NCBI RefSeq assembly: GCF_039962255.1
Contig: NZ_JAMPKY010000004.1
Location: forward strand, 310,001-374,000
Source of the DNA: Leptolyngbya subtilissima AS-A7
Lineage (GTDB): Bacteria > Cyanobacteriota > Cyanobacteriia > Phormidesmidales > Phormidesmidaceae
Direction: 5' to 3'
DNA length: 64,000 nt
Part shown: in pieces, positions 6,252 to 62,877 of the stretch
How the letters are laid out: every line of letters begins with the position of its first letter
Numbering within the stretch: position 1 is the stretch's first letter
Translations under genes and position numbers: made by a program
The notes under the pieces: generated by a model
Databases searched by the model: none
Seen by the model: only the letters and a program-made list of their open reading frames with translations
Told to the model about the DNA's origin: nothing

Positions 6252-6345
6252 GGATATCCCTCTGAGGGTAGAGAGAGGGATGGGGGGATGAGGAGGGTAG
6301 GGGAGGTAAGGAGGACGAAGGCCAGGAGGTTAGAGGGTTTGAGTC
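6252..6345 (+). repeat. G-rich degenerate heptad tract (family B, single arm)
   Basis: About 95 bases almost free of C, made of runs such as GGGATGG, GGGGATG, AGGAGGG and TAGGGGA in loose 7-8 base steps. It resembles one arm of the larger family B elements at 41,797 and 53,221, without the C-rich partner. The rest of the 5942-6529 gap holds only the small ORF at 6006 and AT-rich sequence. Confidence 0.6.
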
Positions 6346-6529
6346 AACAATGTAACGTTTTTGAAGAGGGGTCCAGATTGGGGAGAGCGTCCTACTTTTT
6401 ATATAGATTTCATAGATAGGAACAGAAAACTTGAGCATTTGGTTATGACTTTAAGTTTTTAGACAACGCCAATTTACATAAATCCTAAATATTGAGCATT
6501 AAATTCAAAGGTTTAGCTGAACTAACCCC

Positions 6530-6946
6530 TTACTCCCCACTCCCCCGCTCCTCCAACAGCAGCCGAATCGCTCGCAGTTCCTGCAACATCTGCCGCATTA
6601 GGTCATGGGTCAACGTCTCCTCCGGAGGCTGCACTTGAATGGTGGGGTGCAGGCCCAGCACTTCTTCAGCGAAGCGGCGCACTTCCTGGGGGCGAAACTC
6701 GAGGGGATCGTCTTTGTCGCGGCGCACCTCAGGATTGAGCTTAGCTTTGTCGTAGGGGGGGTTGAGAGTTGCGGAATCGGTGTTGGCGTAGCGGTATACC
6801 GAAGCCCGCGATCGGTTGAGGTACTTTTGCACCGCGTCTACCGACAGCAGCGCCCCAGTGTCTTCGGCGGTTCCCGTCCATCCGTAGGCTGAAGCAGAGC
6901 TGGCACCGTCAGCAGAGTTGGAGACAAAGGGCGAATCGGGGATCAT
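6530..6946 (-). CDS. Putative small DNA-binding protein with a helix-turn-helix-like segment
   Basis: A 138-residue soluble protein. Residues about 33-60 (LLSVDAVQKYLNRSRASVYRYAN) look like a MerR/excisionase-type helix-turn-helix, in which a short domain picks a binding site. The central region is polar. The C-terminus (LTHDLMRQMLQELRAIRLLLEERG) is a probable coiled coil for dimerisation. No catalytic motif is seen, so a resolvase or integrase is not supported. It stands alone, divergent from the FAD oxidoreductase gene. The fold is inferred from pattern only. Confidence 0.7.
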   Translation of the reverse strand: MIPDSPFVSNSADGASSASAYGWTGTAEDTGALLSVDAVQKYLNRSRASVYRYANTDSATLNPPYDKAKLNPEVRRDKDDPLEFRPQEVRRFAEEVLGLHPTIQVQPPEETLTHDLMRQMLQELRAIRLLLEERGSGE

Positions 6947-40582: not shown

Positions 40583-43153
40583 TTGCTGGAGTGGCCTCGG
40601 CTGTGCCAGCACTTATCTACCTTTGCCGCCACTAAGCGCGGCACCCTAGCGGCCCAGGCACTAGTCACCCCTGCAACCCAAGCAGCTAGCGTCAACCTGC
40701 TGACTCAGACCCAGGAGGCCGACTGGCTGGAGCAGCACAACAACGGCCTTAACTTTGGCGGCATTCGCGATATTGGGACGGCGGTGGAGCGAGCCTATCG
40801 CCAGGGGCTATTGAGCGGCGAGGAGCTGTTGGCCATTGCCACCACCCTACATGGAGCACGCCAGCTGCGGCGCACCATTGATGCTCAGCCGCCGGAGGAT
40901 ATACCGGTTTTGCAGGATTTGGTGGCCGACCTGAGCACCCATCCCGAGCTGGAACAGCAGATTTATCACTGCATTGACGATCGCGGCGATGTCACCGATC
41001 GGGCTAGCCCTAAGCTAGGGGAGGTGCGCGATCGCCTCAAATCGACCCGCCAAGACATTCAGCAGCGGCTCCAGCGGATTTTGCAGCGCCAGTCGGGGGC
41101 TATGCAGGAGCTATTGATTACCCAACGGGGCGATCGCTTTGTGCTGCCTGTCAAAGCGCCCCAAAAAGACGCGGTGCCCGGCATTGTGCACGATGCTTCA
41201 GCCAGCGGGGCCACCCTTTACATCGAGCCTCAGTCGGTAGTCGAACTGGGCAATCGTCTGCGCCAGCTGCTGCGTCAGGAAAAGACCGAGGAAGATATTG
41301 TTCTACGGCAGCTTAGCGACGCGGTGGCAGAGGTCTATGACGACCTAAGCCATTTGCTAGCAGTGGTCACCGAATTGGATCTAGCTCACGCCCGCGCTCG
41401 CTACTCGCTGTGGCTAGAGGCTAACCCGCCTCGGTTTATCGAACCCCAAGAGCAGACCACCCTGCGTCAGCTGCGCCACCCGTTACTGGTGTGGCAGCAG
41501 CGCCACGAGCAGGGGCCTGAGGTGGTGCCGATCAACCTGCTGATTCGCCCAGAGCTGCGGGTGGTGGCCATTACTGGCCCCAACACCGGCGGCAAAACCG
41601 TTACCCTCAAAACCCTGGGCCTAGCGGCGCTAATGGCCCGCGCGGGCCTCTACGTACCGGCCCGTGAACCTGTGGAAATTCCCTGGTTTGGGCAGGTGTT
41701 GGCCGACATTGGCGACGAGCAATCGATCGAGCAGAGCCTATCGACATTCTCGGGCCATATTCGCCGGATTGGGCGGATTTTGGCAGCGCTTAGTGGTGGG
41801 GCAGGTGAGGAAAGTAGGGGAGATAAGGAAAGTGGCGGAGATGAGGAAGAGCAACACGCCCTTGGGATAGGCTTCGCCAACTCTAGTAGACCTTCACCGA
41901 CAAACGAATCGGAAGTGGAGGATTTATCAGAGTCTGCGGATGCTCCCATCCCCGCATCTCCCTATCCCCGCATCCCCCCATCCCCTCATCCACGCCTCCA
42001 CCCCCCCACCTCAGCCAACGCCCTTGTACTGCTCGATGAAGTTGGCGCTGGTACCGACCCAACGGAGGGCACTGCCCTGGCCATTGCCCTGCTCAAGCAC
42101 CTGGCCGAGCGGGCGCGGCTGACCATGGCCACAACCCATTACGGTGAGCTGAAGGCGCTGAAGTATCAGGACGCGCGGTTTGAAAACGCGTCGGTGGAGT
42201 TTAATGAGGCGACGCTGTCGCCGACCTATCGGCTGCTGTGGGGCATTCCGGGGCGATCGAATGCACTAGCTATTGCTCGCCGACTAGGGCTAAATGCTGG
42301 GGTAATTGATGCAGCGGCAACTCTGATGGCGACGGGGTCACAAGACGATGTTAACCAGGTGATTGCTGGGCTGGAGGCCCAGCGACGCCAGCAGGAGGAG
42401 CGATCGCAGGAGGCGGCCGAACTGCTGGCCGCTACCGAAAAACTGCACCGTGAGGTGCAGCACAAAGCCGACATGCTGCGCGATCGCGAGCAGGAACTCA
42501 AGCTCCAGCAGCAGGCGGCGGTGCAGCAGGCGATCGCCGACGCCAAGCGCGACATTGCCAAAGTAATTCGCCGGTTGCAGCAGGGCGATGCCACGGCGCA
42601 AGATGCCCAGCGAGCCACGGCAGCGGTGGATGCGATCGCCCAATCTCGTTTGCCTGCGGCTGCGCCGACTCCCGCGAAACCGGGTTACCGGCCGGCGGTG
42701 GGCGATCGCGTGCGCATTCCCAGCTTGGGTCAGACTGCGGAGGTGCTGACCGCCCCCGACGACGACCACCGCATCACCGTGCGCTTTGGGCTGATGAAAA
42801 CCACCGTCAGCCTAGCCGATATCGAATCGCTGCGGGGTGAAAAGGCGGAGGTACCCGTTAAGACAAAGCCTATCGATACCGTACCCGCTGCCCAGGCTGC
42901 GCCCCCTGCTCCCGCCATTCGCACTAGCCGCAACACGATCGATCTGCGCGGCATGCGGGTGGCTGAGTCAGAGGCGGTGCTAGAGGAGGCGATCGCTCAG
43001 GGCAGTGGTGCTCTGTGGATTATCCACGGTCACGGCACTGGCAAGCTCAAGGCGGGGGTACATGAGTACCTCAAACGCCATCCGCAGATTCAACGGTTTG
43101 AGCCTGCGGCCCAGGCCGATGGTGGCACTGGGGTAACGGTGGCCTATCTGTAG
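40583..43153 (+). CDS. mutS2: MutS2 family ATPase/endonuclease with an unusual insertion
   Basis: An 856-residue MutS2. It has the core (LEWPRLCQHLSTFAATKRG), Walker A GPNTGGKTVTLKTLG (about 330), QSIEQSLSTFSGH, Walker B LVLLDEVGAGTDPTEG (about 480), a coiled coil and a C-terminal Smr nuclease domain (IDLRGMRVAESEAVLEEAI). MutS2 limits homologous recombination and, in some bacteria, rescues collided ribosomes. About 73 extra low-complexity residues lie at about 402-475, between STFSGH and Walker B. The TTG start (40583) is a poor fit, since the family sequence appears to begin about 7 codons earlier, where only ATT or CTG is available. Confidence 0.93.
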   Translation: MLEWPRLCQHLSTFAATKRGTLAAQALVTPATQAASVNLLTQTQEADWLEQHNNGLNFGGIRDIGTAVERAYRQGLLSGEELLAIATTLHGARQLRRTIDAQPPEDIPVLQDLVADLSTHPELEQQIYHCIDDRGDVTDRASPKLGEVRDRLKSTRQDIQQRLQRILQRQSGAMQELLITQRGDRFVLPVKAPQKDAVPGIVHDASASGATLYIEPQSVVELGNRLRQLLRQEKTEEDIVLRQLSDAVAEVYDDLSHLLAVVTELDLAHARARYSLWLEANPPRFIEPQEQTTLRQLRHPLLVWQQRHEQGPEVVPINLLIRPELRVVAITGPNTGGKTVTLKTLGLAALMARAGLYVPAREPVEIPWFGQVLADIGDEQSIEQSLSTFSGHIRRIGRILAALSGGAGEESRGDKESGGDEEEQHALGIGFANSSRPSPTNESEVEDLSESADAPIPASPYPRIPPSPHPRLHPPTSANALVLLDEVGAGTDPTEGTALAIALLKHLAERARLTMATTHYGELKALKYQDARFENASVEFNEATLSPTYRLLWGIPGRSNALAIARRLGLNAGVIDAAATLMATGSQDDVNQVIAGLEAQRRQQEERSQEAAELLAATEKLHREVQHKADMLRDREQELKLQQQAAVQQAIADAKRDIAKVIRRLQQGDATAQDAQRATAAVDAIAQSRLPAAAPTPAKPGYRPAVGDRVRIPSLGQTAEVLTAPDDDHRITVRFGLMKTTVSLADIESLRGEKAEVPVKTKPIDTVPAAQAAPPAPAIRTSRNTIDLRGMRVAESEAVLEEAIAQGSGALWIIHGHGTGKLKAGVHEYLKRHPQIQRFEPAAQADGGTGVTVAYL
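41797..42014 (+). repeat. Family B heptad element inside mutS2
   Basis: A purine-rich left arm (GGGGCAGGTGAGGA, AAGTAGGGGAGATAAGG, GGCGGAGATGAGGA) is followed by a middle segment and a pyrimidine-rich right arm (CCCATCCCCGCATCTCCC, CCCCATCCCCTCATCC). The arms are loosely inverted and built from 7-8 base steps. The element stays in frame and adds about 73 codons. Confidence 0.65.
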
Positions 43154-52463: not shown

Positions 52464-53219
52464 ATGCAAACCCTGACTAAAACAGCCAATTCCATCCCTT
52501 CTCTAGACGGCAAAGTCGCGATCGTCACCGGCGGGGCGCGGGGCCTAGGAGCGGCCACCTGCCAATGCCTAGCCGCTGCCGGATTGAACGTGGTCGTCGC
52601 TGACCTGCGCCACGAGTTGGCCACCGGCCTTGCCCAGGAAATTGAGGCTTCTAGCGGTAGCGCTATGGCTCTCAACCTGGATGTCACCAGCCCTGCTAGC
52701 GCCGCCGCTCTGCTCGATCAGGTGCTCGATCGCTACGGCCGCATCGACGTGCTGATTAACAACGCTGGCATTGACGTCACCGAATCGGTAGAAGACCTGA
52801 CCCACGACCAGTGGCAGCAGGTAATTAACGTCAACCTCAACGGCCCGTTTTATATGTCTAAAGCCGTTTTTCCTGCCATGCGCGAAAACGGAGGCGGCCA
52901 CATTATCAATATTGTTTCCACTGCCGCCAAACGGGCCTGGGCCAACGCCTCCGCCTACCACGCCAGCAAATGGGGCCTGCTGGGCTTCTCTCAAGCGCTG
53001 CACGTGGAAGGACGACCTCACAACATCAAAGTTACCTCTCTGATTGCCGGCGGCATGCGCACCCCGTTTTTGCTAGAGCGCTTCCCCGACATCGACCAGA
53101 CCACCCTACAAGACCCCGCCAATGTGGCTGAGACCATCCGCTACCTGCTGATGCAGCCCCCCGGCACGGTGATCTCGGAGATGATGGTGCTGCCGATGAA
53201 GGAGACTTCGTGGCCGTAG
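52464..53219 (+). CDS. Classical short-chain dehydrogenase/reductase (SDR)
   Basis: A 251-residue protein. The cofactor loop is TGGARGLG, then NNAGID, catalytic Ser in NIVSTAAKR and YHASK. The Asp at the end of the second strand (VVVADLRHE) favours NAD(H). It is a classical SDR, not the extended type, so it is not HldD. Its place between the GmhA fusion and gmhB suggests a step in sugar modification. Confidence 0.85.
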   Translation: MQTLTKTANSIPSLDGKVAIVTGGARGLGAATCQCLAAAGLNVVVADLRHELATGLAQEIEASSGSAMALNLDVTSPASAAALLDQVLDRYGRIDVLINNAGIDVTESVEDLTHDQWQQVINVNLNGPFYMSKAVFPAMRENGGGHIINIVSTAAKRAWANASAYHASKWGLLGFSQALHVEGRPHNIKVTSLIAGGMRTPFLLERFPDIDQTTLQDPANVAETIRYLLMQPPGTVISEMMVLPMKETSWP

Positions 53220-53220
53220 G

Positions 53221-53438
53221 GGAATAGGGGAGTGGGAGGGTAGGAGGGTGGATGAGTAGATGGGTAGGGGATAGGAGGGTGATGACTTTCGCAACGGCTT
53301 GCTCCCTATCTAGTTAGTCACCTTCTCTCTTATCGCCCTGCATCCACCCACTTCCTCACCTTTCTTATCTCCATTACTCTCCCACCCTCCCACTCCATCA
53401 CTCATCCACCCTCCCACCCGCCTACCCATCCACCCCCC
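53221..53438 (+). repeat. Family B heptad element, intergenic
   Basis: A G-rich left arm (GGGAGGGTAGGAGGGTGG, GGGTAGGGGATAGGAGGG) and a C-rich right arm (CCCACCCTCCCACTCC, CCACCCTCCCACCCGCC) face each other around about 60 bases. It fills the whole gap between the SDR gene and gmhB. Its layout matches the mutS2 insert. Confidence 0.7.
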
Positions 53439-53445
53439 CCCTCCC

Positions 53446-54030
53446 ATGCTCCCCGCGATTTTTCTTGACAAAGATGGCACCTTGCTCGAAGACGTGCCCT
53501 ATAACGTTGACCCGGCGCAGATGCGGCTGTGTGCTGGGGTGGCGACTGGGGTGCAGCGGCTGCACGAGGCGGGGTTTGCCCTGGTGGTGGTAACTAATCA
53601 GTCGGGGGTGGCGCGGGGATATTTTGCGGAGGCGGCGATCGCCCCTATGGAGCGCCGCTTACGCCAGCTGTTGGGGGTGCCGATCGCGGGTTTCTATTAC
53701 TGTCCTCACCATTCTCAAGGCAGTGTGGCGGGCTATGGAGTGAGCTGCAGCTGTCGAAAGCCTGAGCCGGGCATGCTGCTGCGGGCCCAAGCTGACCTGG
53801 GGCTTGACCTGGGCTGCTCCTGGATGGTGGGAGACATTCTCAACGATGTGGAAGCGGGGCGGCGGGCCGGGTGTCGCACCGTTTTAATTGACAACGGCAA
53901 CGAGACCGAGTGGATATTGACGCCGGGGCGGGTGCCCCACCAGATTGCTCAGACCTTTGACCAAGCTGCCGACCTCATTCTTCAGCAGAGCTATGCCTAC
54001 TCCAGACGTCCAGACCCAGTGTTTCCCTAG
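53446..54030 (+). CDS. gmhB: D-glycero-D-manno-heptose 1,7-bisphosphate phosphatase
   Basis: A 194-residue HAD phosphatase. Catalytic FLDKDGTLLED (nucleophile and acid Asp), VVVTNQSGVARGYF, the zinc-binding CPHH...CSCRKPEPGM and MVGDILNDVEAGRRAG are all in order, typical of GmhB. It removes the 7-phosphate to give heptose 1-phosphate for the second HldE reaction. Its last 38 bases overlap the start of hldE, so translation is coupled. Confidence 0.92.
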   Translation: MLPAIFLDKDGTLLEDVPYNVDPAQMRLCAGVATGVQRLHEAGFALVVVTNQSGVARGYFAEAAIAPMERRLRQLLGVPIAGFYYCPHHSQGSVAGYGVSCSCRKPEPGMLLRAQADLGLDLGCSWMVGDILNDVEAGRRAGCRTVLIDNGNETEWILTPGRVPHQIAQTFDQAADLILQQSYAYSRRPDPVFP

Positions 54031-60585: not shown

Positions 60586-62877
60586 ATGACCCAGATCCTC
60601 TTTATTGAGCTGCTTGGGGGCCTTGGCGATGTCTTAATTGCTCTGCCTGCTATTCAAGCGCTGACGGCATCTCACCCACAGGCCCACATGACGGTGCTGA
60701 CCTTTGCGCCGGGGGACAGTTTGCTGCATCACCACCCCCAGGTGCATCGGGTTTTGCGGGCTCCAGCGGGCCAAGCGCGGCAGGCCGTGGCAGAGGCGCT
60801 GCGATCGCCCTACGACTTGGTGGTGACCGACACCACCTACGACGGCATTGCCGATCTGGTGTGCCAGAGTGGGGCACCGCAAACGGTGACGAACCTGTGG
60901 CGAAACCCACCGTCAGACCAAGGAGTGAGCGATCGCATGCTCCAGATCCTTCAGCACGAAGGCCTGATTACGGCCGCCGCTAGGGAACACCGCCATCCCC
61001 GTCTGTACCCTACTGCTGAGGAATGCGATCGGGTGCAGGCCCAGTTACGCTCCCTTAGGCATCCCCGAATTGCTCTCTACCCTGATGCGGGCATGGCCAT
61101 CAAGCAGTGGTCACCCGATCAATTTGTGGCCCTGGGCCGGTTGCTGCACCAGCGCTATGGGGCCAGCCTGATTGTGCCAGCGGGCGCTGACCCCAAGCAG
61201 GCCCAGGCGATCGTCGATCAGCTTGAGGACGCGACCCTCTGGCCTAGGGGATCGCTGCGCGATCTGGCGGCGCTCTTTGCTCAGCTAGATTGCATAGTGG
61301 CCGTCGATACCGGCCCGGCCCGCATCGCTGCTGCCGTGGGCACTCCCACTGTCACTCTGTTTGGCCCGGCCTGGCAGGGTCGCTATGGTCAGCCTGCCCC
61401 TCACATCAATTTGCAGGGCTATTCCTCTTGTCCAGAACGCAACATCGCCAACTTTACCGAGCAGGCCTGCTGGTATAGCGGCACCTGTCCCTTTGTTTGG
61501 GATACCTGCGTCAATTTGATAGCTCCAGAGCAGGTTGCAGGGGCGATCGATGAAATTTTGGGACTCGGGAATGAGGGGGCGCGAAGTGCCGAGTTTGTCC
61601 TGGTTAAAGGGGGGAATGACTCAGTAAACGCTTCAGACCGGATAGGCTCCCCAAATCTCTCAGTGCAGAGGAACTTTGAAAACTGTAGCTCCTCGCAGAC
61701 TATACCCAAGGCGTTGGGCGAGGTGGGGACCGGTGGCAACCACGTCGCCCAACGCCCAAACCTCAACGCTTCTCCTATAGATATGCTGCGCGTTGGCGAA
61801 TCCAGTTGGCAGAATTCACCACCAGTCTCACTCCCTAACCCCCACCCCCTACCCTTCTCCCCCTGGCTGAACGCTCGCAACCTGCTCGTTCTCCGGCTCG
61901 ACAACATTGGCGACGTGCTCATGACAGCGCCAGCGCTCCAGGCCATTAAGGAAACCAGTCCCTACACGCGCTTGACCCTAATGGCTAGCCCGGCTGGGGC
62001 AATGGCTGGGCCGCTGTTGCCCTGGGTCGATGACGTGCTGCCCTGGCGTGTTTTGTGGCAGGCGCTGGGCCAGCCCCCAGGGGATGTGGAGCAAGACTGG
62101 GCTCTGATCGACACCCTCAAGTCGCGTCAGTTTGACGGGGCAATTATTTTCACCAGTTTTAAGCAAAGCCCGCATCCGGCCGCCCTAATTTGCCAGATAG
62201 CGGGCATTCCTCTGCGGCTGGGCGCGTCGCAGGAAACGGGGGAATGTCTCACCCAACGCATTGCTGATCTTCCCAGCGACCTGCACCAAGTGGAGCGGAA
62301 TTTGCGACTGGTGGAGACTGCTGGATTTGAGGTGCAAAATCGCCACCTTTCGATCGCCATTCCTCCGTCTGCCCGTGTCCCTGCCGTTCCCTACCTGCTG
62401 CTCAACCCTTGGGCCAGCTGCCCGTCGCGCATGTATGACCTAGAGCGGTTTGCGATCGCCGCCCGCACCCTGGCCGACAAAACTGGCTGGCCCGTAGTCG
62501 TCACCGGCACTGCCAAAGACCGCGCCGCTGCTGCCTCCCTACTCGACACCCTCGGCCCTCACGCCATCGACCTGATCGGCCAGACCTCCCTGGAGGATCT
62601 GGTGGCGCTGGTGGCCCAGGCCCGGCTGCTGCTCTCGAACAACACCTCGACTATGCACATTGCCGACGCCACCCAAACCCCCAGCGTGATTTTGTTTGCG
62701 GGCACTGAGCTTGAACGGCAGTGGCAGCCGCGACAGACCCGCGCCCAATTGCTGCGCCGCCCCACCCCCTGTAGCCCCTGCTATGCCTTTACCTGCCCCT
62801 ACGAGCTGGAATGCCTGGATATTGCACCGGAGAATGTGGTGGCAGCGGGGCTGGCTTTGCTGAATCTTGACGTTTGA
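60586..62877 (+). CDS. Tandem GT9 glycosyltransferase (two GT9 modules in one protein)
   Basis: A 763-residue protein. Module 1, about 1-325, starts ILFIELLGGLGDVLIALPAIQAL, with IALYPDAGMAIKQWSPDQFVAL and VAVDTGPARIAAAVGTPTVTLFGPAWQG. A linker of about 100 residues (about 325-425) is low-complexity. Module 2, about 428-763, starts NLLVLRLDNIGDVLMTAPALQAIK, with LLNPWASCPSRMYDLERF and LLLSNNTSTMHIADATQTPSVILFAGTE. Both keep donor-site motifs, so both may work, perhaps adding two sugars in turn. Each module ends in a Cys cluster. The next ATG is 3 bases after the stop. Confidence 0.92.
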   Translation: MTQILFIELLGGLGDVLIALPAIQALTASHPQAHMTVLTFAPGDSLLHHHPQVHRVLRAPAGQARQAVAEALRSPYDLVVTDTTYDGIADLVCQSGAPQTVTNLWRNPPSDQGVSDRMLQILQHEGLITAAAREHRHPRLYPTAEECDRVQAQLRSLRHPRIALYPDAGMAIKQWSPDQFVALGRLLHQRYGASLIVPAGADPKQAQAIVDQLEDATLWPRGSLRDLAALFAQLDCIVAVDTGPARIAAAVGTPTVTLFGPAWQGRYGQPAPHINLQGYSSCPERNIANFTEQACWYSGTCPFVWDTCVNLIAPEQVAGAIDEILGLGNEGARSAEFVLVKGGNDSVNASDRIGSPNLSVQRNFENCSSSQTIPKALGEVGTGGNHVAQRPNLNASPIDMLRVGESSWQNSPPVSLPNPHPLPFSPWLNARNLLVLRLDNIGDVLMTAPALQAIKETSPYTRLTLMASPAGAMAGPLLPWVDDVLPWRVLWQALGQPPGDVEQDWALIDTLKSRQFDGAIIFTSFKQSPHPAALICQIAGIPLRLGASQETGECLTQRIADLPSDLHQVERNLRLVETAGFEVQNRHLSIAIPPSARVPAVPYLLLNPWASCPSRMYDLERFAIAARTLADKTGWPVVVTGTAKDRAAAASLLDTLGPHAIDLIGQTSLEDLVALVAQARLLLSNNTSTMHIADATQTPSVILFAGTELERQWQPRQTRAQLLRRPTPCSPCYAFTCPYELECLDIAPENVVAAGLALLNLDV
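61710..61756 (+). repeat. Hairpin repeat inside the GT9 linker
   Basis: GGCGTTGGGCGA and TCGCCCAACGCC form a perfect 12-bp stem with 23 bases between. It is coding sequence within the inter-module linker and reads as KALGEVGTGGNHVAQRP in the protein. It looks like a dispersed repeat that has entered the gene. Confidence 0.6.

Follow-up and report, generated by a model that had tools for sequence, protein, structure and literature searches.

The mutS2 gene of Leptolyngbya subtilissima AS-A7 raises the question of how repeat DNA of an intergenic kind might come to be translated within the core of a conserved ATPase, and what becomes of it there. The window analyzed here is a 64,000-nucleotide stretch of this 5.66-Mb genome, and positions below refer to it unless another contig is named. 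An initial annotation had drawn attention to a run of repeats lying in frame between the STFSGH motif and Walker B of this gene. MutS2 rescues ribosomes in Bacillus, and in B. subtilis its hydrolysis of ATP is required to split collided ribosomes, according to the available portion of one account (PMC10897456); the available portion of another treats it as a suspected suppressor of recombination (PMC3200294).

The insert and its host protein

The gene, the motifs that flank the insert, and the parts of the insert itself are as follows, all on the + strand.

40583 to 43153: mutS2 coding sequence, 856 codons from TTG 40583; the true start is possibly slightly upstream
41576 to 41599: Walker A, GPNTGGKT, residues 332-339, invariant in alignments of 13 and 32 sequences
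41741 to 41758: STFSGH, residues 387-392, at the start of the helix preceding the loop (helix 382-403 in the model)
41788 to 42019: insert with its edges as scored, enclosing 41797-42014
41797 to 41850: G-rich arm, period 18 nt
41851 to 41944: insert centre, alignable with G010, G017, and L133 only
41945 to 42010: C-rich arm, period 8/16/24 nt
42029 to 42061: Walker B, LLDEVGAGTDP, residues 483-493 (strand 480-484 in the model)

The open frame 40583-43150 is unbroken across the insert. It is open from 40529, and its first in-frame ATG, GTG, or TTG is TTG 40583, which falls within what appears to be the conserved N-terminus (ETLELLEW). The product matched Pfam families MutS_V, MSSS, and Smr, with MutS_V split into two stretches, and had no Pfam match to MutS_I or MutS_II. 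It thus has the features of a MutS2: a MutS-type ATPase with Walker A and B, a KOW/SH3-like region, and a C-terminal Smr domain, without domains I and II. Its best PDB matches were likewise MutS2 (phmmer to 7qv3, E 6.5e-124). Among the best 80 of 591 loci, the closest named ones belonged to MAGs of Nodosilinea (L133, 93%) and Tildeniella (L142, 95%), as measured over the best segment.

From STFSGH to LLDEVGAGTDP the loop spans 90 residues; with a minimum of 17 elsewhere, about 73 are extra, so that the annotated in-frame insert of this size is real and lies in one open frame. The annotation had described purine-rich and then pyrimidine-rich heptads. The order was borne out, with G/A-rich DNA (a Gly/Glu/Asp peptide) followed by C/T-rich DNA (Pro/Ser/His), but the periods are 18 and 8/16/24 nt rather than 7, and a middle of about 95 bases consists of neither purine nor pyrimidine runs. 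The insert's codons were shuffled 200 times, and no shuffle reached its best self-match, at lag 16. No Pfam domain lies within the insert, and no Rfam family was found there at gathering score, as might have marked an intein or intron; a cobalamin riboswitch (247-418, - strand) is the only match at that score in the window. Plasmid records held no match to the insert; 17 of them had MutS2-like matches, with less than 60% identity among the matches listed.

AlphaFold2, run on the 32-sequence alignment (mean pLDDT 80.9, pTM 0.61), gave residues 407-476 a pLDDT below 50 and no secondary structure, between helix 382-403 and a strand (480-484) that leads into Walker B. The model matched MutS2 of Thermotoga (9kce), Thermus (7vuf), and Bacillus (7qv3), and the predicted disorder agrees with the suggestion that the insertion point may be a surface loop.

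As RNA, the insert folds better than all 200 of its dinucleotide shuffles (z -4.2), and a sister element between two genes of the window also folds better than dinucleotide shuffles (z -4.1). Against codon shuffles, 10 of 20 loops from the window's genus had z of -2 or lower, and 41 other loops had a mean of -0.24. The central hairpin was not retained in three relatives, and the insert's own arms paired no better than shuffled arms (46/300). A conserved RNA structure was ruled out on these three grounds (lost hairpin, arms that pair like shuffles, and the mean of the other loops), and the folding is taken as a by-product of the type of element.

Loop length across MutS2 proteins

MutS2 matches were found in all 96 cyanobacterial genomes, and the loop was measured in 76. 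The others were either not fetched (14: G021, G029, G041, G043, G051, G052, G058, G068, G073, G082, G085, G088, G090, and G093) or cut by a contig end or frameshifted (6: G001, G007, G016, G022, G024, and G048). Within the window's genus, 19 of 20 loops had 40-90 residues and one had 25 (G018), the shortest, so that no empty site was found in a close relative there. The 56 loops from other cyanobacteria comprised 19 of 17-22 residues, 12 of 23-38, and 25 of 40-132, and the bare 17-residue loop occurred in at least 9 of all 76. Two further genomes of the genus Symploca added one long loop (76 residues, L222) and one gene of which only the part after the loop was seen.

Outside the cyanobacteria, 43 of 46 loops had 17 residues, one had 18, and two were long. 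These 46 came from 47 noncyanobacterial loci among 80 kept, six of which (one noncyanobacterial) gave no loop; as the best 80 of 591, the loci are not a random sample. The two long noncyanobacterial loops, in Thermogemmatispora (48 residues) and Pseudobutyrivibrio (51; L158, L159), lie at the same site and contain no DNA repeat. The initial annotation had raised the possibility of a strain-specific insert. The loops of relatives, and long loops at the same spot in many cyanobacteria, rule out a strain-specific insertion and give no support to a singular one: a long loop here is common in cyanobacterial MutS2.

Both halves of the gene lay on a single contig in 77 fetched cases, of which 76 are in frame; the exception, in G024, is frameshifted at Walker B, outside the loop. 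In five drafts (G001, G007, G016, G022, and G048), contigs break off or switch within or close to the mutS2 loop (L073-L080, L082, L083), one contig of G007 continuing there into unrelated sequence; the loop thus breaks assemblies.

DNA repeats inside the loops

The 63 loops with at least 20 extra residues were each scored for their best self-match at lags 4 to 30 against 200 shuffles of the loop's own codons. Repeats beyond codon shuffles were present in 41 (p of 0.05 or less; about 3 expected by chance) and not detected in the other 22. In 27 of the 41 the lag was not divisible by three, being mainly 7, 8, 14, or 16, and in 14 the lags were divisible by three only. Two genomes were counted twice among the 63 (L012/L134 and L029/L142); without doubles, 40 of 61 loops are repetitive, 26 of them at lags not divisible by three. 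The units differ between lineages: octads in the window, ACTCAAC in G004, CAAAATT-like in G002, CCCAATT in a MAG of Symploca sp. SIO2C1, and AAAAGTT-like in Trichodesmium, the last four loops having 7-nt periods. The loops of G053 (25 residues) and G056 (44), with flanks 93% identical, look like growth of one 15-nt unit.

When four of the loops were each searched against the same five genomes, the outcome was mixed. The G042 loop had 5 matches at home (itself included) and none in the four others; that of G004 had 6 at home, 4 in the window's genome, and none in the remaining three; and that of Symploca had 52 at home (itself included, some adjacent, with 40 of 666 candidates scored), 5 in Trichodesmium, and none elsewhere. 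The window's own loop is not home-specific: apart from itself it had a single match at home, against 14 in Symploca, 3 in G004, and 1 in G042. No donor copy for it was found in its own genome, the one match being partial (54 nt).

Similar elements in the window and genome

The annotation had noted an element of the same type in the gap at 53,221-53,438. It is present, with somewhat wider edges, and the arm scan added a third.

53210 to 53454, no strand assigned: sister element between two genes, G-rich then C-rich
6260 to 6561, no strand assigned: third, weaker element, G-rich then C-rich

A lone C-rich arm of the same kind lies at 61810-61868, without a G-rich partner within 300 nt. Single G-rich or C-rich arms numbered 8 in the window versus 1 in one Markov-3 sequence of equal length, and 78 versus 8 in an 800-kb stretch of another contig. 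The scan for paired arms covered both (864 kb) and returned 18 elements, all of which run G-rich then C-rich, an order that is identical when read from either strand. Fifteen of them reach 2-126 nt into the end of a mechanically called gene, or of two such genes, and the mutS2 copy is the sole element lying entirely within a called gene longer than 100 codons; of the remaining two, one lies wholly in a called 100-codon frame, taken as spurious, and one touches no called gene. Octamers common to the mutS2 arms and the 17 other elements exceeded those of shuffled arms (9 of 500 shuffles as high for the G arm, 3 of 500 for the C arm), and the insert centre had no such excess with the 17. The occurrence of G-rich and C-rich arms in pairs and the octamers shared beyond composition together bear out the earlier view that the insert is of the kind found between genes in this genome. 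No Rfam family was found for the element at gathering score.

A strict scan at lags 7, 8, 14, and 16 picked out 7 stretches in DNA with 757 mechanically called genes, and two of these stretches fall inside genes: the one in mutS2 and one in a peptide synthetase linker. The latter is an octad repeat in frame (contig C1 of the same genome, 708239-708316; L128 8239-8316); its Pro/His/Ser/Thr product separates the TubC_N docking domain from the condensation domain in a synthetase of 1947 residues.

A dispersed element in Symploca

The claim that a repeat element had landed in the ATPase core without breaking the frame finds its clearest counterpart in the Symploca MAG, where a dispersed element matches the insert found at this site: the MutS2 loop (L145) aligns with other copies over most of 222 nt at 81-84%. 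We read 26 copies from this one MAG (the MutS2 copy, 5, and 20 more, chosen for likeness to the MutS2 copy) and counted a copy as in frame where at least 90 codons preceded and at least 50 followed it. Seven were in frame, in MutS2, MurD, a kinase with an AAA_16 domain, an AcrB-type (RND) pump, two TPR-CHAT proteins, and one protein without a Pfam match (L225, L237, L243, L245, L246, and L254 besides MutS2). The CCCAATT strand is the coding strand in all seven. A 239-codon frame on the opposite strand (L241) satisfied the length rule and was dismissed as spurious.

The MurD copy directly precedes DWVIAEISSYQ, and the kinase copy directly precedes the stretch leading to GSAGVGKS. In P-loop folds, helix-to-strand turns lie away from the nucleotide, and by sequence alone the copies in MurD and the kinase seem to occupy turns of this kind. 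The MurD insert is absent in the window's relatives, where both aligned halves were listed in 54 of 57 genomes and lay at most 33 nt apart, with alignment ends that differ; G080 has a possible loop of up to about 28 residues. Given this absence, the MurD insert looks like a single event, in contrast to the MutS2 loop, which seems to have been used repeatedly.

Divergence and selection

The insert sequence diverges very fast, so that the possibility raised in the initial annotation of a conserved insert shared by close relatives does not hold. The compared MutS2 flanks of the window and G010 are 99.7% identical (pN 0.001, pS 0.213), and their inserts, of 76 and 65 residues, are identical at 38 of 64 aligned positions (pN 0.26, pS 0.48). 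In six further relatives with flanks 96-98% identical, the insert ranges from 26 to 70 residues. The centre, compared among the window, G010, G017, and L133, had pN below pS in all six pairs; it offers only about 24 synonymous sites, so that the sign of constraint is weak. The inserts of G017 (L005) and Nodosilinea WJT8-NPBG4 (L133) differ at pS 0.08 versus 0.286 for their flanks, a pattern that a recombinational exchange of the insert might leave.

Across the 20 genus loops there are 174 acidic and 27 basic residues. Translating the G arms of the other 17 elements in three frames yields 131 acidic residues, 148 basic residues, and 83 stops in 51 short frames. The acidic bias fits a filter acting on the protein, though this contrast is partly built in, since G arms are compared here with whole loops, and only an open frame could match the loop pattern. 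We infer that MutS2 remains active as an ATPase and that its loop is tolerated without serving a purpose. A 73-residue addition beside Walker B, in a gene still under purifying selection, is notable given the need for ATP hydrolysis described for B. subtilis MutS2 in the text available.

Origin of the loops

We consider it probable that a permissive loop of cyanobacterial MutS2 repeatedly takes up repeats of intergenic type, filtered for a frame that stays open and for few positive charges. On this view, such a permissive, disordered loop would be formed by the turn that joins the helix after STFSGH to the Walker B strand; repeat DNA of intergenic type, made of short tandem units and in the genus of a G-rich and then a C-rich arm, would have entered or grown there repeatedly; and it would afterwards be remodelled fast, probably by slippage and by recombination within the repeats. 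Selection would retain in-frame, stop-free versions poor in positive charge, the loop otherwise drifting. Against this reading count the failure to find a donor copy for the window's insert, whose matches are not home-specific, the 22 long loops in which no DNA repeat was detected, the lack of an empty site among the genus relatives measured, the apparent growth in place of 15-nt units in some lineages, the partly built-in charge contrast, and the origin of the Symploca data in one MAG with copies picked for their likeness.

A short ancestral loop might instead have grown in place by replication slippage, its likeness to intergenic elements reflecting convergence on simple G-rich and C-rich repeats. 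The 14 repetitive loops with lags divisible by three only are as expected of such growth, as are the 15-nt unit of G053 and G056 and the lack of a full-length relative of the window's insert in its own genome, and plain growth in place may well happen in some lineages too, to judge from that 15-nt unit. As a general account it is nonetheless unlikely: lags not divisible by three, seen in 27 of 41 repetitive loops, would hardly arise by growth within a gene alone, and neither the G-then-C order common to genus loops and elements outside genes, nor the shared octamers beyond composition, nor the match of the Symploca loop to a dispersed element is accounted for. Quite unlikely, in our view, is that the acidic, proline-rich segment is a functional part, kept for example to damp the ATPase or bind a partner, with only its general properties selected. 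Lengths of at least 40 residues in 19 of 20 genus loops, the acidic bias (174 to 27), and a pN below pS in the centre for all six pairs could be read in this way; sequence and length change almost freely, however, at 96-98% flank identity (26 to 76 residues), at least 9 of 76 cyanobacterial loops make do with the bare 17 residues, and the pN/pS signal of the small centre is weak.

That the segment is missing from the finished protein, being spliced, bypassed by the ribosome, or removed like an intein, is hardly credible: the strong RNA folding of the insert could be taken to suggest it, yet all 76 measured loops are open and in frame (as the pattern required, only G024 failing, through a frameshift outside the loop), no Pfam domain or Rfam family marks the insert, and the central hairpin is lost in three relatives. 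An assembly artefact or a dead gene is just as implausible. Contigs do end or switch at the loop in five drafts, and the G024 gene is frameshifted, but long loops also lie within megabase contigs (G008, G011, and G025), and the flanks are under strong purifying selection in the comparison with G010. It is very unlikely, finally, that the loop is a hypermutable switch or tuner, in which slippage in frame-shifting 7- or 8-nt repeats before Walker B toggles MutS2 or alters the length of the loop, given that 76 of 77 genes were found in frame and the one shift lies outside the loop. Were it so, switching would be most frequent in near-perfect arrays, among them the CCCAATT run of Symploca, and a protein thought to police recombination (as the available text on MutS2 has it) would itself be set by the genome's repeats.

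Under the repeated uptake that we favor, DNA of a noncoding type has apparently been made into protein time and again at one loop of a conserved ATPase, with close relatives caught at many stages. These genes would form a natural series for the tolerance of large in-frame insertions, the pace at which disordered loops evolve, and the role of cyanobacterial repeats as a source of protein segments. Users of MutS2 sequences should be aware that assemblies can break at this loop.

Comparison with known systems

No paper on repeat inserts in MutS2 was found in a search of titles and the starts of abstracts, most subscription journals lying outside its scope. MutS2 proteins of Bacillus, Thermotoga, and Thermus (7qv3, 9kce, and 7vuf) belong to the same family and have the same fold on both sides of the insert, but the loop of 7qv3 is short, leading from residue 403 to 407, in contrast to 400 to 477 in the window's protein.

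A close parallel for the DNA itself lies in the G-rich heptameric repeats of Nostoc and Xanthomonas, which, in the part of the account available, occur on the sense strand near or after stop codons and on the antisense strand near or before start codons (PMC4692102), an arrangement that yields the G-then-C order. The same text gives the Nostoc STRR as GGGGA(C/T)T repeats that are 68% intergenic, so that some lie within genes. Like these, the elements of the window's genome are G-rich tandem units found mostly between genes; all 18 pairs run G then C, an order that would fit the reported arrangement, and most overlap or touch gene ends. The units of the window's insert, unlike the STRR, are 8 and 18 nt long and not 7, and in-frame use in a protein core, or in MutS2, does not feature in the available account of the heptameric repeats (PMC4692102).

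Elements of the MITE type are described, in the portion available, as small, dispersed, and able to form in-frame fusions (PMC10969869). The window's elements share small size, dispersal, arms of opposite composition, and in-frame fusion, but no defined terminal inverted repeats or target-site duplication were seen in them, there being no near-identical empty site from which to read a duplication, and the insert's own arms are imperfectly complementary, not above shuffles. The same source, as far as available, presents the Rickettsia palindromic elements (RPEs) as repeats of about 150 bp inserted in frame in numerous unrelated genes, where they are translated into additional segments (PMC10969869). 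Compared by description, RPEs are sequence families, whereas here short tandem units differ between lineages and one loop, that of MutS2, is reused. One element family in several unrelated genes was found in the Symploca MAG only (7 of 26 copies), the in-frame cases in 864 kb of the window's genome being mutS2 and one synthetase linker. As with the RPEs, repeat DNA has nonetheless come to lie in frame in protein-coding genes, in MutS2 and, in Symploca, in MurD, an RND pump, and others.
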